Below, piece after piece: positions 6,426 through 31,949 of a DNA stretch of 64,000 nt. Position 1 is the stretch's first letter. Each line of letters opens with the position of its first letter. The stretch is from Cohaesibacter sp. ES.047 (lineage in GTDB: Bacteria > Pseudomonadota > Alphaproteobacteria > Rhizobiales > Cohaesibacteraceae): contig NZ_LT907844.1 of assembly GCF_900215505.1 (NCBI RefSeq), forward strand, positions 1,460,501-1,524,500. The letters run 5' to 3'. The position numbers and the translations under genes were made by a program. The notes under the pieces are model-generated. The model saw only the letters and a program-made list of their open reading frames with translations, was not told the origin of the DNA and did not search any database.

Positions 6426-6839
6426 ATGAAGTCGCGTGATAGTCTCCTCCGCCTTAAGCGCTTTCAGGTTGATGAAAAGCGCCGTCAGGTTGGACAGATT
6501 GAATTGATGATCACAGAATTCGAAGGCATGATCCGGGATCTCGATACCCAGATTGCTGTCGAAGAGGAAAAAGCCGGCATCAACGATGTCGGGCATTTTG
6601 CCTATCCGACCTTCGCGAAGGCTGCGCATCAGCGTAAGGAGAATCTGCTCGTTTCGATTTCTGATCTGAACGAACAGCTCGACCGTGCGCAGGATCAATT
6701 GCGTGAAGCGATTGGCGAGATGAAAAAGGTTGAAAAGCTCGAAGAGCGGGATCATCAGCGTGAGCAGGCTGCCATCGAGCAGGCCGAGCAGGACGAACTT
6801 GACGATTTTACCATGATTGGTCGCCATCGAACTCGTTAG
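6426..6839 (+). CDS. fliJ: Flagellar export protein FliJ-like coiled coil
   Basis: A 137-residue charged protein that is almost entirely helical, with heptad-rich stretches such as ELMITEFEGMIRDL and LNEQLDRAQDQL. This is the expected form of FliJ, the stalk-like partner in the FliI ring. FliJ proteins diverge strongly, so the call rests on length, coiled-coil character and position 13 bases after fliI. The SD-like AAGGAG lies just upstream of the ATG. Confidence 0.85.
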   Translation: MKSRDSLLRLKRFQVDEKRRQVGQIELMITEFEGMIRDLDTQIAVEEEKAGINDVGHFAYPTFAKAAHQRKENLLVSISDLNEQLDRAQDQLREAIGEMKKVEKLEERDHQREQAAIEQAEQDELDDFTMIGRHRTR

Positions 6840-7046
6840 ACGCCATTCAAGTCAAACATTCCCCTGTCGGCCGACACCAGTGTCGGTCGTGAGAGCTAGG
6901 TTGTGGCTTTCTTACTTCACCGGCGGGAATGCGCCGTGCCGACTGTGCTTTTGCCAGTGGGCGGTTTATTTGTCATCTGGGGTGGTTCCACACCCTATGA
7001 TCGGCTAAGCAAAGGGCAATCATGAAACCGTAAGCTTTGGTTCGAC

Positions 7047-7583
7047 ATGTCGCTGATTGCCATATATTTCGCCAGCCAGGATGGTCAGGCAGCCAAGGTT
7101 GCCGCCTTTATAGGCGAGCAGATCGAACAAACCGGGCCGTGCGTCACGGTTTCTGACCTAAACGCAGGTACTCCCTCAGATATAACACTTGATCGTGCAG
7201 ATGTGGTGGTGGTCGTTGCGGCCATTCGCTATGGGCGGCATCTCAAACCCGCAGAGCGATTCCTCTCCTACCATGAAGCCGCTTTGAGCCAAAAGAAGCT
7301 GGTGCTCATTTCCGTCAATCTGACCGCGCGAAAGCCTGAAAAGCGCAGTATCGAGCGCAGCATCTATTTGCAGAAGTGGGTGGCACGCTATCCGACCCTG
7401 TCGCCTGTGCTCGTGCGCGCTGTGGCCGGTCGGCTCGATTATCCCCGCTATTCACGGTTTGACCGATTTATGATCAGACTGATCATGTCGATCACCAAAG
7501 GGCCGACTGATCCCACCTCCACGATCGAATTCACCGATTGGGACGAGGTTGGTGAGCTGGCCAGCGAGATTGCAGCAATCTGA
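7047..7583 (+). CDS. hemG: HemG-type menaquinone-dependent protoporphyrinogen IX dehydrogenase
   Basis: A 178-residue long-chain flavodoxin. The N-terminal strand and FMN loop IYFASQDGQ are followed by VVVVAAIRYGRHL and then by segments nearly identical in pattern to Escherichia coli HemG: SVNLTARKPEKR, LDYPRYSRFDRFMIRLIM and a terminal YTDW-like FTDWDEV. HemG oxidises protoporphyrinogen IX to protoporphyrin IX in heme synthesis, passing electrons to quinones at the membrane. Most alphaproteobacteria use HemJ instead, so the gene is unusual here. No other heme gene is adjacent; a PqiA-like gene follows. Confidence 0.88.
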   Translation: MSLIAIYFASQDGQAAKVAAFIGEQIEQTGPCVTVSDLNAGTPSDITLDRADVVVVVAAIRYGRHLKPAERFLSYHEAALSQKKLVLISVNLTARKPEKRSIERSIYLQKWVARYPTLSPVLVRAVAGRLDYPRYSRFDRFMIRLIMSITKGPTDPTSTIEFTDWDEVGELASEIAAI

Positions 7584-22544: not shown

Positions 22545-24029
22545 TTAGTCGGGACTTCCCGGCTCGGTCTGCACACCAAGATCCTTGAGTGTCACAATGC
22601 GGTTGCCGCGAAGGTCATTGGCGCAGACCAGAAACCCGCGCTCTTCCATGTAGGTGAGAAGGAAACGGGCGCGGGACGGGGAGCGCGTGCCATAAGCAGT
22701 GGCGAGCTCGATGTTCGTCGGGCAGGCCTTCTTGCCAAGGGCTGCTTTTGCCAGCAGCAGATAGACCCCACGCATATCTTCGGGCAACTGATCGGCGATC
22801 AGCCCAGCCTGATTCCATTGTTGTTCGTCAAGCGCATCTTCCTTCTCGTCGACACCGGCACGGGCGACGGCCAGAAGCTGCCTGAATTCTTGCAGACCCG
22901 GGGTGATCTTCATTTTCTTTTCAATGCGGCAACGGACCTGAAAGTCCTGATAGAGCACGGAAACCGGTTGATAGGCGGCGTCCGGGTCATCGAGAAGATC
23001 GGCCAGAATCGTGTGCAGGATTTCCTCGCGCTCCTGAGCGCTCAGCCCGGGATCTAGATCCAGTGTCGGTTCCGTCTCGCCGCCAAACTGTTCATCAAGG
23101 CGGATGTTCGAAAGCTGTTTGAGCACATCTGCTGTGGTCTTGGGTGGCGGCATGATTGCCGGACGCGGTTCGTCATCGGTGCCGGGTTTGAAGAGAAGCT
23201 CGTCGAGATTTTCCCGGTTCATTTCCGGCAGGGGCATTAGCTTGGGGCTTGATGAGCGCGCCGATGTTTCAACCGGACCGATCTTCACCGTCTCCGAGCG
23301 GCGATAAAGCGCTGGGCCGAGGGCGACGAACTGGCCGCGATCAAGATTTCGAAAGGTTTCGGCTTGTCTGCGTTCAAGGCCGAGAAGGTCGGCCGCGCGG
23401 GCCATGTCGATGTCGAGGAAGGTTCGACCCATGAGGAAGTTCGAGGCTTCGGCGGCCACGTTTTTGGCGAGCTTGGCCAAGCGCTGGGTGGCGATGATAC
23501 CGGCAAGGCCGCGCTTACGGCCACGGCACATCAGGTTGGTCATGGCACCAAGGGACAGGCGGCGGGCTTCTTCGCTGACCTCACCACCGGCAGCAGGCGC
23601 AAAGAGCTGTGCTTCATCGACGATGACGAGGGCCGGATACCAATATTCGCGCTCGATATCGAACAGACTATTGAGAAAGGCGGCTGCCGCGCGCATCTGG
23701 CGGTCCGCATCCAACCCCTCAAGGTTGAGCACAGCGGAGACGCGATGCTGACGAACGCGAGCGGCAATCATGGCCAGATCGGCCTCGGTGCCGACGGCAT
23801 CAACCACGGCGTGACCAAACTTGTCCGCAAGCGTCACGAAATCCCCTTCGGGGTCGATGATGATCTGTTGCACCCACGGGGCGCTCTGCTCAAGCAGGCG
23901 GCGCAGCAGGTGGGACTTGCCCGAGCCGGAGTTGCCCTGAACCAGCAGGCGCGTTGCCAGCAATTCTTCCAGATCCATCTCGGCCGGTTGGCCCAGTTTC
24001 ATGGTCCCCAGATCAATGCTGACGGTCAT
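22545..24029 (-). CDS. HerA/DUF87-type ATPase
   Basis: 494 residues from the ATG at 24029; 45 further codons upstream have unlike composition. It is a P-loop ATPase of the HerA-FtsK class: Walker A GNSGSGKSHLL near residue 34, then IIIDPEGDFVTL, Walker B LVIVDEAQLFAP, and an arginine-rich segment CRGRKRGLAGIIATQRLA typical of HerA. The C-terminal 200 residues are an unassigned helical region, perhaps with a winged helix near SRARFLLTYMEERGF. HerA proteins pump DNA, often with the NurA nuclease; no nurA is adjacent, but an exonuclease-domain gene lies just upstream. A role in DNA metabolism is inferred. Confidence 0.7.
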   Translation of the reverse strand: MTVSIDLGTMKLGQPAEMDLEELLATRLLVQGNSGSGKSHLLRRLLEQSAPWVQQIIIDPEGDFVTLADKFGHAVVDAVGTEADLAMIAARVRQHRVSAVLNLEGLDADRQMRAAAAFLNSLFDIEREYWYPALVIVDEAQLFAPAAGGEVSEEARRLSLGAMTNLMCRGRKRGLAGIIATQRLAKLAKNVAAEASNFLMGRTFLDIDMARAADLLGLERRQAETFRNLDRGQFVALGPALYRRSETVKIGPVETSARSSSPKLMPLPEMNRENLDELLFKPGTDDEPRPAIMPPPKTTADVLKQLSNIRLDEQFGGETEPTLDLDPGLSAQEREEILHTILADLLDDPDAAYQPVSVLYQDFQVRCRIEKKMKITPGLQEFRQLLAVARAGVDEKEDALDEQQWNQAGLIADQLPEDMRGVYLLLAKAALGKKACPTNIELATAYGTRSPSRARFLLTYMEERGFLVCANDLRGNRIVTLKDLGVQTEPGSPD

Positions 24030-24264
24030 ATTGGCATACTGCTCGTTTGGCTGTTGGAATGCAGGCGTGCAAACTCTCAGATTCGGGGCGCGCGCGCAAG
24101 AAACGGGTGATGATGCGTGTAGCGGCCTTGAGGCGCGCCGTGTCGACATCAATGAGGAAGACATATCGTTCTACCCGCCAAAGTCAAGCCCAAGCACCTA
24201 TAGACCGAGCCTTTGAGATTGATTTGCGCAGGCTTTCGTGCGTCTCAGCCTTGGGCTTCTCGCC

Positions 24265-26412
24265 TCAGTATCGCGATTGCTGGCGGCGGATGGCGACGGC
24301 CTTCTGTTCGATTTCGATCGCCTGATAGAGGGTTCTGACGCCGGTGGCCTCTAGAAGATCGATGAGCTTGAGCAACAGGTCTGCAGTGGCAAGGGAATCA
24401 CCGAGCGCCGTATGACGCACATCTGGGGCGATTTCGATGCCGAACTGTTCGGCGAGCGCATCAAGGGTGAGGCTTGATGTCTGGCCCTGAACGTGAGCGG
24501 CGAGCAGCACGGTATCAAGCACCGGATTGTCAAACTGCACGCCGGCCTCTTCCTGCTTCATGCTCAGAAACTTCATGTCAAAGGCGGCATTGTGTGCCAC
24601 CAGCACGGCATCGCCGACGAAGCTGTGAAAGCGCGGCAACACCACTTCGACCGGGGGGGCATCGGCCACCATGGCATCGGCGATGTGGTGGATTTTGGTG
24701 GAGGCTGGCGGAATCGTGCGTCCGGGGTGTATGAGCTGGTCGAACCGCTCTCCCCTGATGATCCGGCCATTGACAATGCGCACGCCTGCAATCGAGATCA
24801 TCTCGTCGCCGCCGGACGGATCAAGACCGGTCGTTTCAGTGTCAAAGACCACGAAATCCAGCTCGCTGAGGGGCGTGTCTTCCAGATCGGCCAGATCCGT
24901 GCGTTCCATCAGATCGAAATCATAAAATTCCAAGCGCTCGGGGATCATCTGATCAGTGTTTGCCTCGCCTTCATCGTGGCGGTCGCGTGGGGGAGCCAGC
25001 GGCAGGCGCAGGCGGATTGGACCATTCGCGCTTCGGGTACACCAGAAATCGGTCTTGTGCCGGTTGAGCACGTCCCTGCCGGTGACGTCGCCGAGATCCG
25101 GATCCAGCGGATCGTCCAGCCAACTGTTGATGGTCGAGACGCTGAGAATGTCCCTCCCGTGCCAAAAGACATCAATATAGGTCTTGTTGTCTTTTGGCGT
25201 TGCTTCAAGCTGGAAAGCGCGGGACTCATGCCAAGCCGCGATCTTGCGCAGGATATGCTCGATCAGCTCGACGATGGTGACCGAGTCGCAATGGATCCAG
25301 ACCGGCTCGCCGATGAACTCGCAGGAAAGCTTCAGGGTTTCGGAGCTGTTACGGCGCAGGATGGAGTTGAAGAGGGACGCAGAGTAGACATCACTCATCG
25401 GCCAGGCGCTGGCCAGCATACCCTGTGCCTTGAGATCCAGCGTTTCGATGCTGTCAGACAGGGCCACCGTTTCCTTTGCCACCATCTGCTCAAGAGAGCG
25501 GCGCACGTCGGGCGACAGGTCATAGTTGCTGGCGAGCAACTCCGCTGTGGCGCGCAGGTTGGCCGCCGGGTGGCGCAGATCGAGAAGCGCACGCTGAAGC
25601 AGCCTGTCGCGTTCGACATTCTCGGCCAGTTGCCGCGTTACATCCTCGAACGTGACGGTGAACCCGCTCGGCGCGGTTTCATCCTGATTGAGCAACAGGG
25701 AAACCCGGCCCTGAAGGGTATGGCGACCGTCTGCGGTGGCGCAGATGACCATCTGGCTGAGGCCGTCGGGATGATGTCTGTGGCGTGCGGTCTCGAAGCG
25801 ATGGCTGAGCCGGTCGAGGGCATGGCGGAAGGGCGCAGCCGAGACCACCGAGAACAGCGAACGCCCGAGGCCCATTTCGCCAGAGACATGCAGGATTTGC
25901 AGGGCGCGGCGGTTGTAGAGCAGGATCCTGTTGTCGAGGTTGCAGATCAGCACCCCCTGATCCAGCTCTTGAAGCACGCTTTCAAGGCGCTGCTTCTGCC
26001 TGCTGGCGCTGGCGGTTGCTGCCGCCACTTGACTGTCGGTTTCCTCTCTTGCCTCGACAAGCGCGGCCGAGATTTCGCGAATGGCAGGATTGAGGAAGCC
26101 GAGATATTTGCCTGTTTCACCGGTCAGATGCTGGGGGGCTCCGGCGTGCACCAGCGAGCGCACATCCTTGACAATCAGGTCTATGGGCTGGGCGACGTTG
26201 ATGTCGAACTTTTGCCAGACCCAGAAGGACACAAAGGCGATGCCAAAACAGGCTAGGCCGCCAGAGAGCACCAGATGCGGCAGGGCATCAGACCCGATGC
26301 GCTGGAGCGCAAAATAGAGCGCGGCCATCAGGATGGCCGATGACGCCACGACGATCAGGGCAAAGAAGAGAAAAATGCGAACACGCAGGCTAAGGCGTTC
26401 CAGTCTGGTCAT
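24265..26412 (-). CDS. Membrane sensor (PAS, degenerate kinase) fused to DEDDh 3'-5' exonuclease
   Basis: 715 residues from the ATG at 26412; a GTG at 26460 is possible. Two transmembrane helices (about 11-34 and 45-66) precede a linker, a PAS-like domain (144-259), a kinase-like dimerisation helix (270-330) and an ATPase-like region (350-474). The C terminus (519-690) is a DnaQ-type exonuclease with all five DEDDh residues: FDTETTG, HNAAFD, and HTALGDS. The usual HDLRxP phosphoacceptor motif reads LDLRHP and no N box or DxGxG is seen, so kinase activity is doubtful. A lone receiver gene is 61 bases upstream. The likely role is membrane-sensed nucleic-acid trimming; this is inference. Confidence 0.75.
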   Translation of the reverse strand: MTRLERLSLRVRIFLFFALIVVASSAILMAALYFALQRIGSDALPHLVLSGGLACFGIAFVSFWVWQKFDINVAQPIDLIVKDVRSLVHAGAPQHLTGETGKYLGFLNPAIREISAALVEAREETDSQVAAATASASRQKQRLESVLQELDQGVLICNLDNRILLYNRRALQILHVSGEMGLGRSLFSVVSAAPFRHALDRLSHRFETARHRHHPDGLSQMVICATADGRHTLQGRVSLLLNQDETAPSGFTVTFEDVTRQLAENVERDRLLQRALLDLRHPAANLRATAELLASNYDLSPDVRRSLEQMVAKETVALSDSIETLDLKAQGMLASAWPMSDVYSASLFNSILRRNSSETLKLSCEFIGEPVWIHCDSVTIVELIEHILRKIAAWHESRAFQLEATPKDNKTYIDVFWHGRDILSVSTINSWLDDPLDPDLGDVTGRDVLNRHKTDFWCTRSANGPIRLRLPLAPPRDRHDEGEANTDQMIPERLEFYDFDLMERTDLADLEDTPLSELDFVVFDTETTGLDPSGGDEMISIAGVRIVNGRIIRGERFDQLIHPGRTIPPASTKIHHIADAMVADAPPVEVVLPRFHSFVGDAVLVAHNAAFDMKFLSMKQEEAGVQFDNPVLDTVLLAAHVQGQTSSLTLDALAEQFGIEIAPDVRHTALGDSLATADLLLKLIDLLEATGVRTLYQAIEIEQKAVAIRRQQSRY

Positions 26413-26473
26413 GGCATGGTATTCGGTGTTGGTCGAGAGAAGCGGTCGGTCTGCAAACACCGGCGATCAGAGG

Positions 26474-26866
26474 TCAGGCGCAAGCGGGATGCTGGGTGTT
26501 GTCCGCGAGAATAGTCTCGACGGTCTGAACGATTGAGAACATCGAAAAGGGTTTGCTGAGATAGGCATCTGCACCAACCGCAAGGCCTTTCTCGATTTCA
26601 ATGTCCCGACTGCGGGCGCTCATCATGACGATCTTGACGTCATGCATTTTGGGTTCGCTGCGCAACGTCTGGCAAACATCATAGCCATCGCGGCCCGGCA
26701 GGCACACGTCCAGCAGGATCAGGTCAGGATGATGAGCGGCGGCTGCGTCCAGAGCCTTCTCGCCATCGTTGGCTACGGTTACGTCATAGCCTTCGGCTTT
26801 CATGAGATGCTCAAGGGCAAAAGCGATGGACGCTTCGTCATCAACGACAAGGATTGATTTGGCCAA
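26474..26866 (-). CDS. Single-domain response regulator
   Basis: 130 residues, one receiver domain and nothing else. The acidic pair is in ILVVDDEA, the phosphoacceptor Asp in ILLDVCLPGRDG, the Ser switch in MMSARS and the Lys in LSKPFS. It lies directly upstream of the sensor-exonuclease gene in the same direction, so the two are probably cotranscribed. Whether the degenerate neighbour can phosphorylate it is unclear; another kinase may be the donor. No output domain means it acts by protein contact. Confidence 0.88.
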   Translation of the reverse strand: MAKSILVVDDEASIAFALEHLMKAEGYDVTVANDGEKALDAAAAHHPDLILLDVCLPGRDGYDVCQTLRSEPKMHDVKIVMMSARSRDIEIEKGLAVGADAYLSKPFSMFSIVQTVETILADNTQHPACA

Positions 26867-27144
26867 TTCGGTGCTCCTCCCAGAAACCGGTCATGACATG
26901 ATGGCCCGAGTATCGCGATTAGCCCCGCACAGCGCAATTGGCCATTCGGGTCAGCGGGAAGGGATGGGTGGGGGGGAGATTGGCCGGATAGAGCCCCATA
27001 TATATGTACCGGCTGCTATTCGCAAGAGATTTCTTTGCATGTTGCAGGAAGTCGCTCATATGTATTCGATGGGGTGGACACCCCTCCGACGGCATAAGTG
27101 TGCCAAACTGGAGAGGTACTCACCAAGCTGAGTAGGAGATTTTC

Positions 27145-28167
27145 ATGAAGCAGGTTTTCATAATCGGGATAGATTTGGCAAAGAACACATTTCAGGTTCA
27201 TGGCGCAACGAAAGCTGGCAACCGCATCTTCAACAAGAAGGTAACACGTGCCAAGCTGATTTCTTTTCTCACAGAGATCCCCAACTGCATAGTTGCAATG
27301 GAAGCCTGTGCCAGTTCGCATTATTGGGGGCGCAGAATTGAGGCGCTCGGGCATACCATCAAGCTGATCCCACCTGCTTACGTCAAACCATATGTCAAGC
27401 GGCAGAAAAATGACGCCAATGATGCCGAAGCGATCGCAGAGGCGGCCTCTCGTCCCACAATGCGCTTTGTTGCGGTAAAGAGTGTTGAAAAACAGGCTTC
27501 TGGAATGGCTCTCCGCACCAGAGATTTGCTCATACGGCAGAAGACGCAGACAATTAATGCCTTACGTGGGCATTTAGCCGAATATGGAATTATAGCCCCT
27601 TGCGGAACGGTTTATCTCAATCGCCTGCAAGAAGCCGTAAATGACCCGGAAACAGAGTTACCTGATGCCGTAATTGCCAATGCTCAGATACTTCTTGATC
27701 ACATTGCGTCTTTAGCAGGTCAGATTAGCCAATTGGAAAAGGATATTCGTGAGGCGGCAAGGCAAGATGAGCGCGCAAGGAAACTGATGAGCGTTCCTGG
27801 AATTGGTCCGATCACCGCCGTAGCTCTAACCGCCCTTGCACCTGACCCGGCAAGCTTTCGCAAAGGTAGAGATTTCGCCGCTTGGACGGGTTTGACGCCA
27901 AAACAATATTCATCGGGAGGAAAGGAACGCATCGGTCATACCTCGAAAATGGGGCAACGCGACTTGAGGCGGCTTCTCATCATTGGAGCGGCGTCAGTTG
28001 TTAGGTGGGCTATACGGCGTGGTTCCGATCAAGGTGGCTGGCTCGGGCAAATGTTGGCGCGCAAGCCAAGAATGCTGGTAACCGTCGCATTAGCCAACAA
28101 AATGGCCCGGGTTGCATGGGCCTTGATGTCTAAGAACGAGAAATATAAGGATCCCGCGATGGTATAA
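27145..28167 (+). CDS. IS110-family transposase, intact
   Basis: 340 residues. The N-terminal RuvC-like DEDD domain shows Asp in IIGIDLAKNTFQVHG, Glu in VAMEACASSHYWG and Asp residues in KNDANDAEAIAEA. The C-terminal transposase_20 domain holds LMSVPGIGPITA and the conserved Ser region LTPKQYSSGGKERIGHTSKMG. These enzymes recombine DNA guided by an RNA encoded in the element. GGAG sits ahead of the ATG. It is the only complete transposase in the 27-34 kb cluster, so the element could still move. Confidence 0.93.
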   Translation: MKQVFIIGIDLAKNTFQVHGATKAGNRIFNKKVTRAKLISFLTEIPNCIVAMEACASSHYWGRRIEALGHTIKLIPPAYVKPYVKRQKNDANDAEAIAEAASRPTMRFVAVKSVEKQASGMALRTRDLLIRQKTQTINALRGHLAEYGIIAPCGTVYLNRLQEAVNDPETELPDAVIANAQILLDHIASLAGQISQLEKDIREAARQDERARKLMSVPGIGPITAVALTALAPDPASFRKGRDFAAWTGLTPKQYSSGGKERIGHTSKMGQRDLRRLLIIGAASVVRWAIRRGSDQGGWLGQMLARKPRMLVTVALANKMARVAWALMSKNEKYKDPAMV

Positions 28168-28410
28168 TCCATCTTTATTGCCATAGCGAGGCATGTAGGA
28201 AGGGCGTAGGTAAGTAAGGACAAACGATCAACGAGACAGGGTTGGGAGAACCAGACACAGGCCGTGCGCCGCAGAGCGCGCGTATCCGAATTGGACCCGA
28301 CCCGCGTATCTCCATACGGGCCCGTGGCGTGTTGATGCCACATCTGGAGGCCGAACACACGACAGCACCTGATCCTTGTTCATATTGACCAAAAACTTCT
28401 TGCATTTTCC
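28168..28410 (+). ncRNA. Candidate bridge/seek RNA region of the IS1111-type element
   Basis: About 240 non-coding bases between the transposase stop and the right inverted repeat. Two compact hairpins are visible: CCCG-c-GTAT / ATACGGG at 28301-28320 and GTGGC / GCCAC at 28324-28341. In IS1111-group elements the guide RNA is encoded downstream of the transposase. The guide loops cannot be assigned without an alignment of relatives. Confidence 0.4.
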
Positions 28411-28421
28411 GGGGTGTCCAC

Positions 28422-28594
28422 ACACGGCCTGTTTATCGGCGCGCGGGCCGTGGCCATGTTGGGATTACGCTCGCACCGTGATCTTATTACTAGAAAGGTC
28501 CAAACTGACCGAATGGGCTCTCAGATTCTGGGGGCGTAATTGTTCCGTTCCATGCATTCAATCAATCGCGAACTCCTTCGAGATCGTGGTTGCT
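28422..28594 (-). other. Non-coding tail of the second IS110 element
   Basis: This stretch follows the broken IS110 gene on the minus strand. It contains a CACGGCC/GGCCGTG hairpin (28423-28452) that includes TAAACAGGCCG on the minus strand. The same word and layout occur 3' of the third IS110 gene near 32984. It is probably the guide-RNA or right-end region of that element. Confidence 0.4.
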
Positions 28595-29655
28595 TCAGAT
28601 GCTAACCACGGCCGCATTCTTGGGCGCATCAAACGCCGTTTTGTGTCTGAGGATACTCCAAGCCATCCGGGCCAGTTTGTTGGCCAAAGCTATCGCCAGC
28701 TTGTTCTGGTTCATGCGTTCTGATGCCCTTATCAGCCATTCACCAAAACTGAAGTCTGGCCATCGATTGGATCGCATCAGAATAACCCTCGCCGCTTGCA
28801 CAAAGAGCATCCGCAAATATCGGCTGCCCCGTTTCGATATGCGTCCAAGTATTGTTCGGCCTCCTGTGCTGTGTTGACGGGGAACCAAACCGACCCAGGC
28901 GGCAAAATAGCGCCCTTAATCAAAGGCTTCTCCAGTTCTGACAGCAGCAACCATCGCAGTCGAGATTACCGGACCAATGCCAGGGATCGTCATCACGTTG
29001 ATGCAGTTTTCTTCCGTCCGGCTGATTTCTTCGATCTCATCCGAGATGGCATCAATCCGACCATCAAGCCAGAGCCAGTCACCGTATAGGCCATACAGAA
29101 TGTTACGCATGCTGGTCGATATCTCGTCTTTTCGCTGCTCCAGAATGATTTCAAATGAATTCTTCAAGGCCCGCAGTCCTTTGCGGACTGTAATGCCTTG
29201 CTCAATCAGGAATGCGCGGATCTGATTGATGGTGGCTGTCCGACGTGACACCAGGCGAGAGCGGACACGATGCAGAGCTTGCAGGTCGAGCTGGTCATGG
29301 CTTTTCTCTGGAACCGTCGGCAGGTTTGGCCGCAATACAGACTCCGCGATAGCCTCGGCATCATTGTAGTCGTTCTTCTGGCCCTTGGCGAAAGGCCGGA
29401 CATAGACTGCAGGGATGATCCGAGGTTCAAAGCCCAGCTTGCGCAAGGAGCGACTGACAAAATGGGCGCTCAGACACGCTTCCATGCCGACAACACATCT
29501 TGGAAGCCTTTCGAAAGTCTGCTCCAAGGCATGCCGCTTGATTTTCTTTTCCGCGGGACCAGTTCGCCATCGCAGTCGAAGCCAATCAGATTAAATGTGT
29601 CTTTGACGATATCGATGCCAATCGACATCAAATTCTCAGTTGCCTTCTTCGTCAT
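28595..29655 (-). pseudogene. IS110-family transposase, frameshifted twice
   Basis: The remains of one transposase of about 350 codons on the minus strand, split over three frames. Piece 1 (from 29655) has LMSIGIDIVKDTFNLIGFD. Piece 2 (to 28916) has GMEACLSAHFVSRSLRKLG and QKNDYNDAEAIAES, then TIPGIGPVI. Piece 3 (28888 to 28595) has RQHSTGGRTILGRISKRG. The first frame change falls in an A-rich run near 29545, the second near 28910. It belongs to a different IS110 lineage from the intact neighbour, reading ID rather than LD in the first motif. It should be inactive. Confidence 0.85.
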
Positions 29656-29871
29656 GCCACTTCTCCATTCCACAGGTGAAACAGTCAAACTATAACCTGC
29701 TGAGTTGGGGGAAGCAGCCGGTACATCCCATTAGTGGACATTGGAAATAGTAGGTCCTTTCGCACATGCTAAAGAGACAACCACAAATCTCGGCCGATGC
29801 CGTTGAAAAAGTAGGCGTTGCTTTGGTGTTGAAGTCCTGGTTCAATTCCTTTGAGGATGGAGGATCGGGGC

Positions 29872-30935
29872 ATGATGGGCAACCAGAGCGGGGTGCAGGC
29901 TTCGCTGTTTTACGCGTTCAATCTCGAAGACCACATACCGCGGGATCATCTGTTGCGGTCCATTGATCGCTTCATTGATCTTGCAAACATCCGACGTCAT
30001 CTAGCGCCTTTCTATAGTTCCATAGGTCGTCCCTCGATCGATCCAGAACTGATGATCAGGATGCTGCTGGTTGGCTACATCATGGGGATCCGGTCTGAGC
30101 GCCGACTCTGCGATGAAGTGCATCTCAATCTTGCCTATCGGTGGTTTTGCCGCCTGGATCTGACAGATCCTGTCCCGGACCATTCAACCTTTTCCAAGAA
30201 CAGGCATGGTCGGTTCCGCCAGAGCGATCTGTTCAGGAAGCTGTTCGAGGATGTTCTCAGCCGCACGATCGCCGAGGGGCTTGTTGGCGGGGAAGCCTTC
30301 GGGATTGATGCTTCGCTGATCAAGGCAGATGCAAACCGTGAGGATGGCATTGAACCTAAGGACTGGTCACCAGACGACCACGCAAGCCGGGCGACAGAGG
30401 AATATCTACAGACGCTGGATGATGAGGCCCTTGGCTCTGCCACACCGGTCCCTCCGAAATACATCTCGCCCGTGGATCCGGCTGCGCGATGCCTCTCAGC
30501 GATTGCAAGCAATCGCTTGCCGGTAATAGACTGCAGCTGATCGCGGTAAGGCGCACTTCATCTATTCAACCAACTATCTGGTCGATCTCGACAACGGGAT
30601 CATCGTAGATGTGGAACCGACAGCTCCCATTCGTCAGGCCGAGAATAAAGCGGCCCGCGACATGATCGAGCGAGCCATGGATCAGACCGGCCTCTATCCT
30701 GCGCGACTTGTCGGGGACACCGGCTATGGCAGTGCGGAGATGCTGGGATGGCTTGTCTATGAATATGGGATCGAGCCACACATTCCGGTGTTCCATTGCC
30801 TGGCAGGCAAGCGAAGCGCCGCCGAGAAGGTACAAATCTGGGAGACGCGATGGTACCTTCTCACGCTCCGACTTCATCTACGATCCTGACGGGGACGTAT
30901 ATTACTGTCCCGGCGGCAAATCCCTGCATCAATAA
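29872..30935 (+). pseudogene. IS1182-family transposase, frameshifted and truncated
   Basis: The first 220 codons are open and typical of IS1182-type DDE transposases: SLFYAFNLEDHIPRDHLLR, SIGRPSIDPELMIRMLLVGY, SERRLCDEVHLNLAYRWFC, PDHSTFSKNRHGRF and FGIDASLIKADANR. Near 30500 the frame is lost at a small insertion carrying an 8-bp inverted repeat (GCGATTGC-AA-GCAATCGC). Homology resumes in two further frames (YSTNYLVDLDNGIIVDVE, then SDFIYDPDGDVYYCP). The gene stops at the edge of the IS30-type element, so the C terminus is gone. Confidence 0.85.
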
Positions 30936-30953
30936 CGTCTTCCCGAATTCCGT

Positions 30954-31949
30954 CGTGAAGTGCAACACTCCCGCCTCGATATGGTATCGAGGTGGTTGTT
31001 GAGACCGTCAGGAGTGTTGCGATGCCATGCTATTCCCATCTTTCTATCGATGAAAGAGAACAGATTTCCACCTTGAGACATTCCGGTCACTCGATCGGTT
31101 CAATCGGCGAGCTTGTTGGTCGTTCCAAATCCACGATCAGTCGCGAGTTGAGCCGTAATCGGCTGCCGTCAGGTCGCTATTCACCCAGCCATGCCGATGG
31201 GAGCTATTTGCTTCGTCGGCAGCGTCTTGCCATTCTTGAAGATGTTGAGAAGCTCGGCCAGTTTGTTCGGGACCGACTGTCGGAAGGCTGGATGCCGGAG
31301 CAGATTGCAGGCTGGCTGAAGGCAGGTAACGAGAAGGTTTGCGCCCTATATGCTTTGAAACGATCTATAGCTTCATCTATCGAGCTGGCCAGAAAAGTGA
31401 AGAATTGTGGAAGCTTCTGACCCGTGGACATCGCATCCGCAGGCCTATGCGTGCCCGCCGTTCACGCGACAGGATCAAGGATCGGGCATCCATTCATGAT
31501 CGGCCAGAAGCGGCAGAAAACCGCCAAGAAGCAGGGCATTGGGAAGCGGATCTGATCATCTGCAAGCGAACCCGCCCTGTGCTTGTGATCCACGAGAGAA
31601 AATCCCGGGTTACCCTGGCTGCTCGCATGACCGGCAAGAGCGCGGCCGAAACAGTCTCGGTGATGATGTCTATCTTCCGTCGCCTGGATCCGGCCTTGCG
31701 CAAGTCAGTCACATTCGACAATGACACAACCTTCGCCCAGCACAGCCTACTGCGCTCCATGTTCAACATGACGACATGGTTTTGCGATGCCTATGCCTCT
31801 TGGCAAAAGGGGGGAGTAGAGAATGCGAATGGTCGATTGAGGCGATGGTTGCCAAGGGACTTCGATATTGACGCGATGGACGACGAGGAGCTGCAAGACC
31901 TTGGTAAAGACGCCAAAATCTGCTTTGCTTAAACCTGTTGCACTTCGCG
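30954..31949 (+). mobile_element. IS30-family insertion sequence, defective
   Basis: Terminal inverted repeats match at 13 of 14 bases: CGTGAAGTGCAACA at 30954-30967 and TGTTGCACTTCGCG at 31936-31949. At 996 bp it is shorter than a typical IS30 element, in line with an internal deletion in its transposase. Different elements flank its two sides (IS1182-type left, IS5-type right), so insertion was accompanied or followed by deletion. Confidence 0.75.
31022..31932 (+). pseudogene. IS30-family transposase, frameshifted with internal deletion
   Basis: The N-terminal part (31022 on) has the IS30 helix-turn-helix HLSIDEREQISTLRHSGHSI and SKSTISRELSRN. Near 31338 the frame shifts; FETIYSFIYRAG and the catalytic core GHWEADLI, TFDNDTTFA and CDAYASWQKGGVENANGRLR continue in another frame. 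At the end DEELQD joins straight to LGKDAKICFA; in relatives about 25-30 residues separate these. Two independent lesions make it inactive unless frameshifting restores the first. Confidence 0.85.

Follow-up and report, generated by a model that had tools for sequence, protein, structure and literature searches.

Within the 64,000-nucleotide stretch of the Cohaesibacter sp. ES.047 genome analysed here (the window), genes were identified for a single-domain receiver and, directly behind it, for a membrane-anchored protein in which a PAS domain and a kinase-like module are fused to a DEDDh exonuclease. Both genes are intact and are part of an operon that is split in this genome. The fusion protein belongs to a widespread family, and comparisons of its members support the view that the kinase module is dead in the whole family. 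The genes surrounding the fusion in its relatives suggest a signalling pathway with a nuclease output, not a gene switch, in organic-acid uptake clusters. Pseudokinase read-out as such is of a known kind; here, two-component signalling with such a read-out would be joined to a nuclease. In the open-licence literature searched, no description of a pseudokinase-exonuclease fusion was found.

The fusion is encoded on the minus strand (24265..26460) and comprises 731 aa if translation starts at a GTG codon, but comparison with relatives weakly points to the ATG at 26412 (715 aa) as the likelier start. Searches against Pfam matched PAS and RNase_T, and no match to HisKA or HATPase was obtained up to an E-value of 5. 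Two transmembrane helices are predicted within residues 25-85 (26206..26388), with hydropathy peaks at 29-47 and 63-81 and, in an AlphaFold model based on 59 aligned sequences, long N-terminal helices at 25-55 and 57-105. The model continues with a long helix (123-165) and a PAS core (169-273), the latter in agreement with the PAS domain assigned to residues 158-278 (25627..25989; Pfam PAS 158-230, PAS_4 to 276, PAS_7 to 278). A DHp-like helical hairpin (residues 275-351; 25408..25638), apparent from the model and from profile and fold comparison, and a CA-like domain of the ATPase fold (residues 356-489; 24994..25395) follow. The CA-like domain is devoid of the N-box Asn, the G1 Asp (Trp433 instead) and the F box. 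Residues 509-516 (24913..24936) form a linker motif, R-x-E-F-Y-D-F-D, of which R509, D514 and F515 are present in all 87 fusions of the family alignment described below; similar motifs occur in four of 23 other exonuclease relatives (L011-L033). Within the linker of the model, confidence is lowest at residues 497-514. The C-terminal part (residues 536-730; 24271..24855) is a DEDDh exonuclease, recognised as RNase_T with an E-value of 6e-36 and by PolC/DnaQ structures, with D, E, D, H and D all in place.

Foldseek searches with the whole model returned the WalK integrative model (9e-20), VicK (5e-16) and DivL (4e-9), in addition to DnaQ/PolC exonucleases. When residues 276-495 were modelled alone, a pLDDT of 89.5 was obtained and the fold matched kinase cores including that of DivL (4q20). 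A sequence profile of the same segment likewise matched kinases in the PDB, DivL among them at 5e-6. A preliminary description, made by inspection of the sequence, had listed two transmembrane helices, a PAS-like domain, kinase-like DHp and CA regions and an intact exonuclease, and had proposed structure prediction as a check. All of these elements were confirmed, and the DHp-CA histidine kinase fold is present.

To what extent the kinase motifs are missing in the family was evident from an alignment of 87 fusions, window included, some of which are near-duplicates. The residue at the phosphoacceptor position 293 is Glu in 62 of them, Gln in five, Asp in four and another one in the remainder, Leu in the window and His in none. 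At the positions of the N-box Asn, His402 and Lys406 are found in the window; the commonest residues among the relatives are His (36%) and Arg (47%). Trp433 replaces the G1-box Asp in 86/87 fusions, and in all 58 fusion rows of an alignment with the active kinases encoded at these loci. In that alignment the F box has disappeared from the fusions, and only a single one of the three G2 glycines survives in most of them (69%). The dead kinase recognised in the preliminary description is thus borne out for the family. A displaced phosphoacceptor was considered and rejected, since the DHp hairpin contains no conserved His at all; the most frequent one, at residue 289, occurs in 26/87 fusions, and residue 297 is His in 5/87. 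Other residues of the pseudokinase are near-invariant (W433 in 86, G435 in 85, W447 in 86, H468 in 87 and R485 in 83 of 87), which argues that the sensor module is not decaying. The exonuclease likewise proved as complete as it had been described: D540, E542 and D628 are found in 87/87 fusions, H683 and D688 in 86/87 with one gap each. Given this conservation across 87 sequences, a decaying pseudogene was rejected for the full fusion copy.

The genes next to the fusion were examined in 80 fusion loci retained by the scan, with representatives identified via Pfam and NCBIfam. DUF294 was detected in 52 loci, an SLC5-type histidine kinase in 46, an SSS symporter in 31, DUF4212 in 25, a DUF3311-like small protein in 23, and acetyl-CoA synthetase in eight; these counts are lower bounds, because many contigs end nearby. 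All 47 loci with wide flanks contain the SLC5 kinase and/or DUF294, and 16 of the 47 gave no DUF294 match. In Paracoccus denitrificans PD1222 (PDEN_RS25395-RS25415) the order is DUF294, small protein, kinase (annotated as 'ATP-binding protein'), receiver and exonuclease, with overlapping reading frames. The H-box of this kinase reads HELRTPL, and EASRASL is found at the aligned place of the fusion. In Marivivens sp. JLT3646 the order is acs, DUF4212, SSS, DUF294, a hypothetical gene, receiver and '3'-5' exonuclease'. Two other named records, the plasmids H18 and H4, have no annotated features at the locus. The symporter in the Cohaesibacter locus L037 is a member of the VC_2705 family (NCBIfam, 845 bits with a cut-off of 321) and presumably carries acetate or pyruvate. 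The symporter part of the kinases gave a weak Pfam SSF match for one query out of three (1e-4), shows nine and 11 predicted transmembrane segments in two examples, and aligns at 45% with a counterpart in the genome of the window; we take the SLC5 label to be justified also by likeness to described SLC5 kinases. No REC match was obtained in 49 SLC5-kinase frames, three of which are truncated. Between DUF294 and the receiver, L037 also specifies a protein with two TM segments and about 176 aa (6768-7295) without a Pfam match; relatives of it occur in 10/80 loci. Frames of about 543-547 aa are located near the loci L155, L149 and L159, and those of L155 and L149 match the kinase profile through the DHp part only.

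The receiver gene of the window (26474..26866, minus strand) starts with TTG and specifies 130 aa, residues 5-116 of which match Pfam Response_reg, leaving a single-domain receiver. The acidic pair D9/D10, D53, S83 and K105 are intact, and among 70 receivers D10 is kept in 70, D53 in 69, T or S at position 83 in 69 and K105 in 70. Such a gene is found immediately 5' of the fusion on the same strand in 70 of the 87 cases, window included, and is not found there in 17. The pairing, noticed before in the window alone, is therefore conserved. A search with a profile built from these receivers detected one in 66/80 fusion loci: in 46/46 with an SLC5 kinase versus 20/34 without one, 17 of these 20 being short-flanked. 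For the 47 wide-flank loci, the corresponding numbers are 35/35 and 3/12, and nine loci hold no receiver by this search. In L170, the receiver adjoins the SLC5 kinase on the other strand.

A receiver exclusive to the pseudokinase forms was indicated by a short-flank count, in which it was found in 69/84 loci with the pseudokinase versus 0/20 without (five rows with less than 200 bp upstream omitted). This idea was dropped after wider flanks of 15 loci had been inspected. All five loci with the pseudokinase have receiver and SLC5 kinase, and of the ten without it, eight have neither and two (L159 and L160) have both, next to an exonuclease lacking the pseudokinase. Since the receiver tracks the kinase (46/46) and occurs without the pseudokinase in these two loci, it is primarily the partner of the SLC5 kinase; its presence in L159 and L160 also means that it may have another target. 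Two receivers per locus, neither of them immediately 5' of the fusion, are found in L039 and L040. The Marivivens receiver (L177:7579-7959) is diverged (96 bits) with ED as acidic pair, and no kinase is annotated in this stretch.

Comparison of the pseudokinase with the kinase encoded next to it revealed a clear resemblance. Profile-profile alignment (hhalign) yielded a probability of 99.2 and an E-value of 5.8e-20, or 98.9 and 4e-17 with other settings. The consensus sequences are identical at 26/63 positions in DHp and 27/136 in CA; the likeness is thus strongest in the helices on which receivers dock, and the DHp sequence common to both goes beyond general kinase motifs. When the pseudokinase profile was searched in 13 genomes, seven of which carry fusions, five of these seven (G087, G051, G079, G233 and G131) gave as best non-self match the adjacent SLC5 kinase, encoded no more than about 4 kb away. 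The best match was a 447-aa kinase frame in the genome of the window (G000) and a 418-aa frame on another contig in G064. In a tree of 45 rows, the pseudokinases form one clade (100/100), located on the same side of a branch as the SLC5 kinases with a support of 92/87, which is below the threshold of the tool. Because of the profile similarity, the best non-self matches and the tree, it is likely that the pseudokinase descends from the core of the neighbouring kinase, as far as sequences can tell.

The exonuclease is also tied to the DUF294 nucleotidyltransferase. In a sample of 289 genomes of the class, 44 of 55 strong DUF294 matches (42 of 52 genomes) were located within 10 kb of an exonuclease match, a lower bound determined with no chance control. 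Among the fusions of this sample, only those of G087, G079 and G131 are no more than 10 kb away from DUF294; it is far from the fusion in G000, G051 and G233, and G064 has none. PP_0354 of Pseudomonas putida, considered below, is probably a DUF294 protein as well. Exonuclease relatives without the pseudokinase possess TM-PAS, TM-only or EamA N-termini, and the exonuclease is therefore a module accepting several membrane inputs, of which the pseudokinase is one. A single open frame of L032 (1360-3582) combines exonuclease, two CBS domains, DUF294 and DUF294_C; equal frame lengths suggest that seven further genomes look like L032. In L015 (664-2169) and L018 (1501-3009), a DEDDh exonuclease of this type is joined to an EamA transporter with two EamA units. 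For a function in defence, PADLOC returned general DEDDh, PDC-S48 and receiver-level matches only.

A nuclease-output two-component circuit would best accommodate these arrangements, and we consider its chances of being correct about even. The SLC5-symporter histidine kinase would sense or transport a small organic acid and, in the arrangement present in most relatives, would phosphorylate the lone receiver. The receiver, which has no output domain, could then dock on the DHp helices of the pseudokinase module, which is itself probably derived from the core of that kinase, in the way that DivL, also a pseudokinase, is bound by phosphorylated DivK. Docking, together with PAS and membrane input, would rearrange the pseudokinase dimer and thereby switch the C-terminal exonuclease at the membrane, either on or off, towards a presumed nucleic-acid (or nucleotidylated) substrate. 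Lone receivers abound, and for many of them no output has been identified. Here, a probable output is encoded in the same operon and carries a module that looks like an inactive duplicate of the kinase partnering the receiver, and the role of this receiver is therefore directly testable. If the circuit exists, the acetate/pyruvate switch gains a post-transcriptional or post-translational arm, and the recurrence of exonuclease and DUF294 nucleotidyltransferase beside acetate-type symporters is explained. A more specific version is improbable in our estimation: the receiver would read out on the duplicated, inactive kinase core and so switch an exonuclease that undoes nucleotidylation by DUF294, the modified protein or RNA being one that controls the uptake of organic acids.

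Alternatively, the pseudokinase could be a mere spacer for dimerisation and membrane tethering. In that case, PAS/TM input or the level of expression would control the exonuclease, and the receiver would act on something else in the locus, such as the symporter or the DUF294 enzyme. Exonuclease relatives that do without a pseudokinase, and the two loci with receiver and SLC5 kinase but no pseudokinase, could be understood in this way. A spacer, however, would not be expected to keep its kinase likeness concentrated in DHp, nor is it easily reconciled with a receiver directly before the fusion in 70/87 cases, also where no SLC5 kinase was seen (20/34). We regard such a spacer as possible, though rather unlikely. 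An ordinary DnaQ-like exonuclease of repair or RNA turnover, with a decayed sensor and unrelated neighbours, is brought to mind by the PolC/DnaQ proofreading exonucleases, the closest solved relatives. With near-invariant pseudokinase residues and an SLC5 kinase and/or DUF294 in each of the 47 wide-flank loci, this explanation is disfavoured and very improbable.

The recurrence of DUF294 (44/55 matches near an exonuclease, 52/80 fusion loci and the single frame of L032) could also mean that the two enzymes are antagonists, DUF294 attaching nucleotides to the 3' end of an RNA or to a protein and the DEDDh enzyme removing them, with the receiver balancing organic-acid uptake. One report fits in so far as a P. 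fluorescens protein with cNMP, CBS and nucleotidyltransferase domains is predicted to act by nucleotidylation (PMC5715377). Linkage indicates partnership, however, not antagonism, and the 16 of 47 wide-flank loci without a DUF294 match are not accounted for. Moreover, deletion of the exonuclease in P. putida impairs growth on pyruvate and deletion of PP_0354 does not (PMC9927547). Antagonism of this kind is therefore doubtful, with a small chance of being right.

That P. putida exonuclease, PP_0353, is the described protein set beside the fusion, a comparison by description only. It is a putative stand-alone exonuclease of the MxtR/ErdR (CrbS/R) regulon, without which growth is impaired on pyruvate but not on acetate; the authors speculate on mRNA degradation by it, and its homologues adjoin actP/yjcH in P. 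aeruginosa PAO1 (PMC9927547). Like the fusion, PP_0353 is an RNase_T exonuclease, and its operon contains the CBS-domain gene PP_0354; it is described in sections 7 and 8 of that paper without a pseudokinase or a lone receiver (PMC9927547). The SLC5-STAC kinases CrbS, CbrA and RpuS combine an SLC5 symporter domain with a histidine kinase core, as do the kinases in most relatives' loci. CrbS has been classed as a hybrid kinase, and transcription of acs is activated by CrbR (PMC5715377). Unlike the hybrid CrbS, the kinases of the fusion loci gave no REC match and have a lone receiver adjoining. The word 'exonuclease' is absent from the main text of PMC5715377, PMC5436829, PMC9100948 and PMC13022988. 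In Caulobacter, the transmitter core of DivL became a sensor of DivK phosphorylation, and DivL keeps its N, G1, F and G2 boxes with Tyr in place of His, as stated in PMC4211667, whereas in the fusion the boxes are largely lost and the His is mostly replaced by Glu. Also unlike DivL/DivK, the fusion carries its output, the exonuclease, on the same polypeptide, and the receiver is encoded by a linked gene. With the DEDDh exonucleases of DnaQ/PolC the fusion has the fold and the five catalytic residues in common, but it has a membrane-anchored sensor input and no polymerase domain in the ORF.

In the genome of the window, no SLC5 kinase of the locus type is found beside the receiver-fusion pair; the only SLC5 kinase found in it is a distant, longer frame of 1186 aa at about 2374664-2377822, in which REC was matched weakly (22.8 bits). 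The genes for DUF4212, SSS and DUF294 are located at 1603830-1608195 of contig C1, about 117 kb from the fusion. In the closest relatives, Cohaesibacter MAGs with 68% identity, all these genes are found together. Directly 3' of the fusion, the window contains a gene for a HerA-like ATPase (22545-24164), 83% identical to the ATPase near the Cohaesibacter fusion of L037. Since the genes occur together with this downstream ATPase in the MAGs, the operon must have been split, and its downstream half is the part found in the window. A block of 1389 bp (window 25587-26974), containing the receiver gene and the first 291 or so codons of the fusion, is repeated with 98.6% identity at 1588822-1590209 of C1, about 14 kb from the DUF4212, SSS and DUF294 genes, and this second copy of the fusion is truncated. 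It is followed by a transposase-like ORF (1587417-1588379), labelled by eye. Further transposase-like ORFs, also assigned by eye, are located 5' of the receiver gene in the window (27145-31420), at 27145-28167, 28916-29527, 29851-30540 and 30992-31420.
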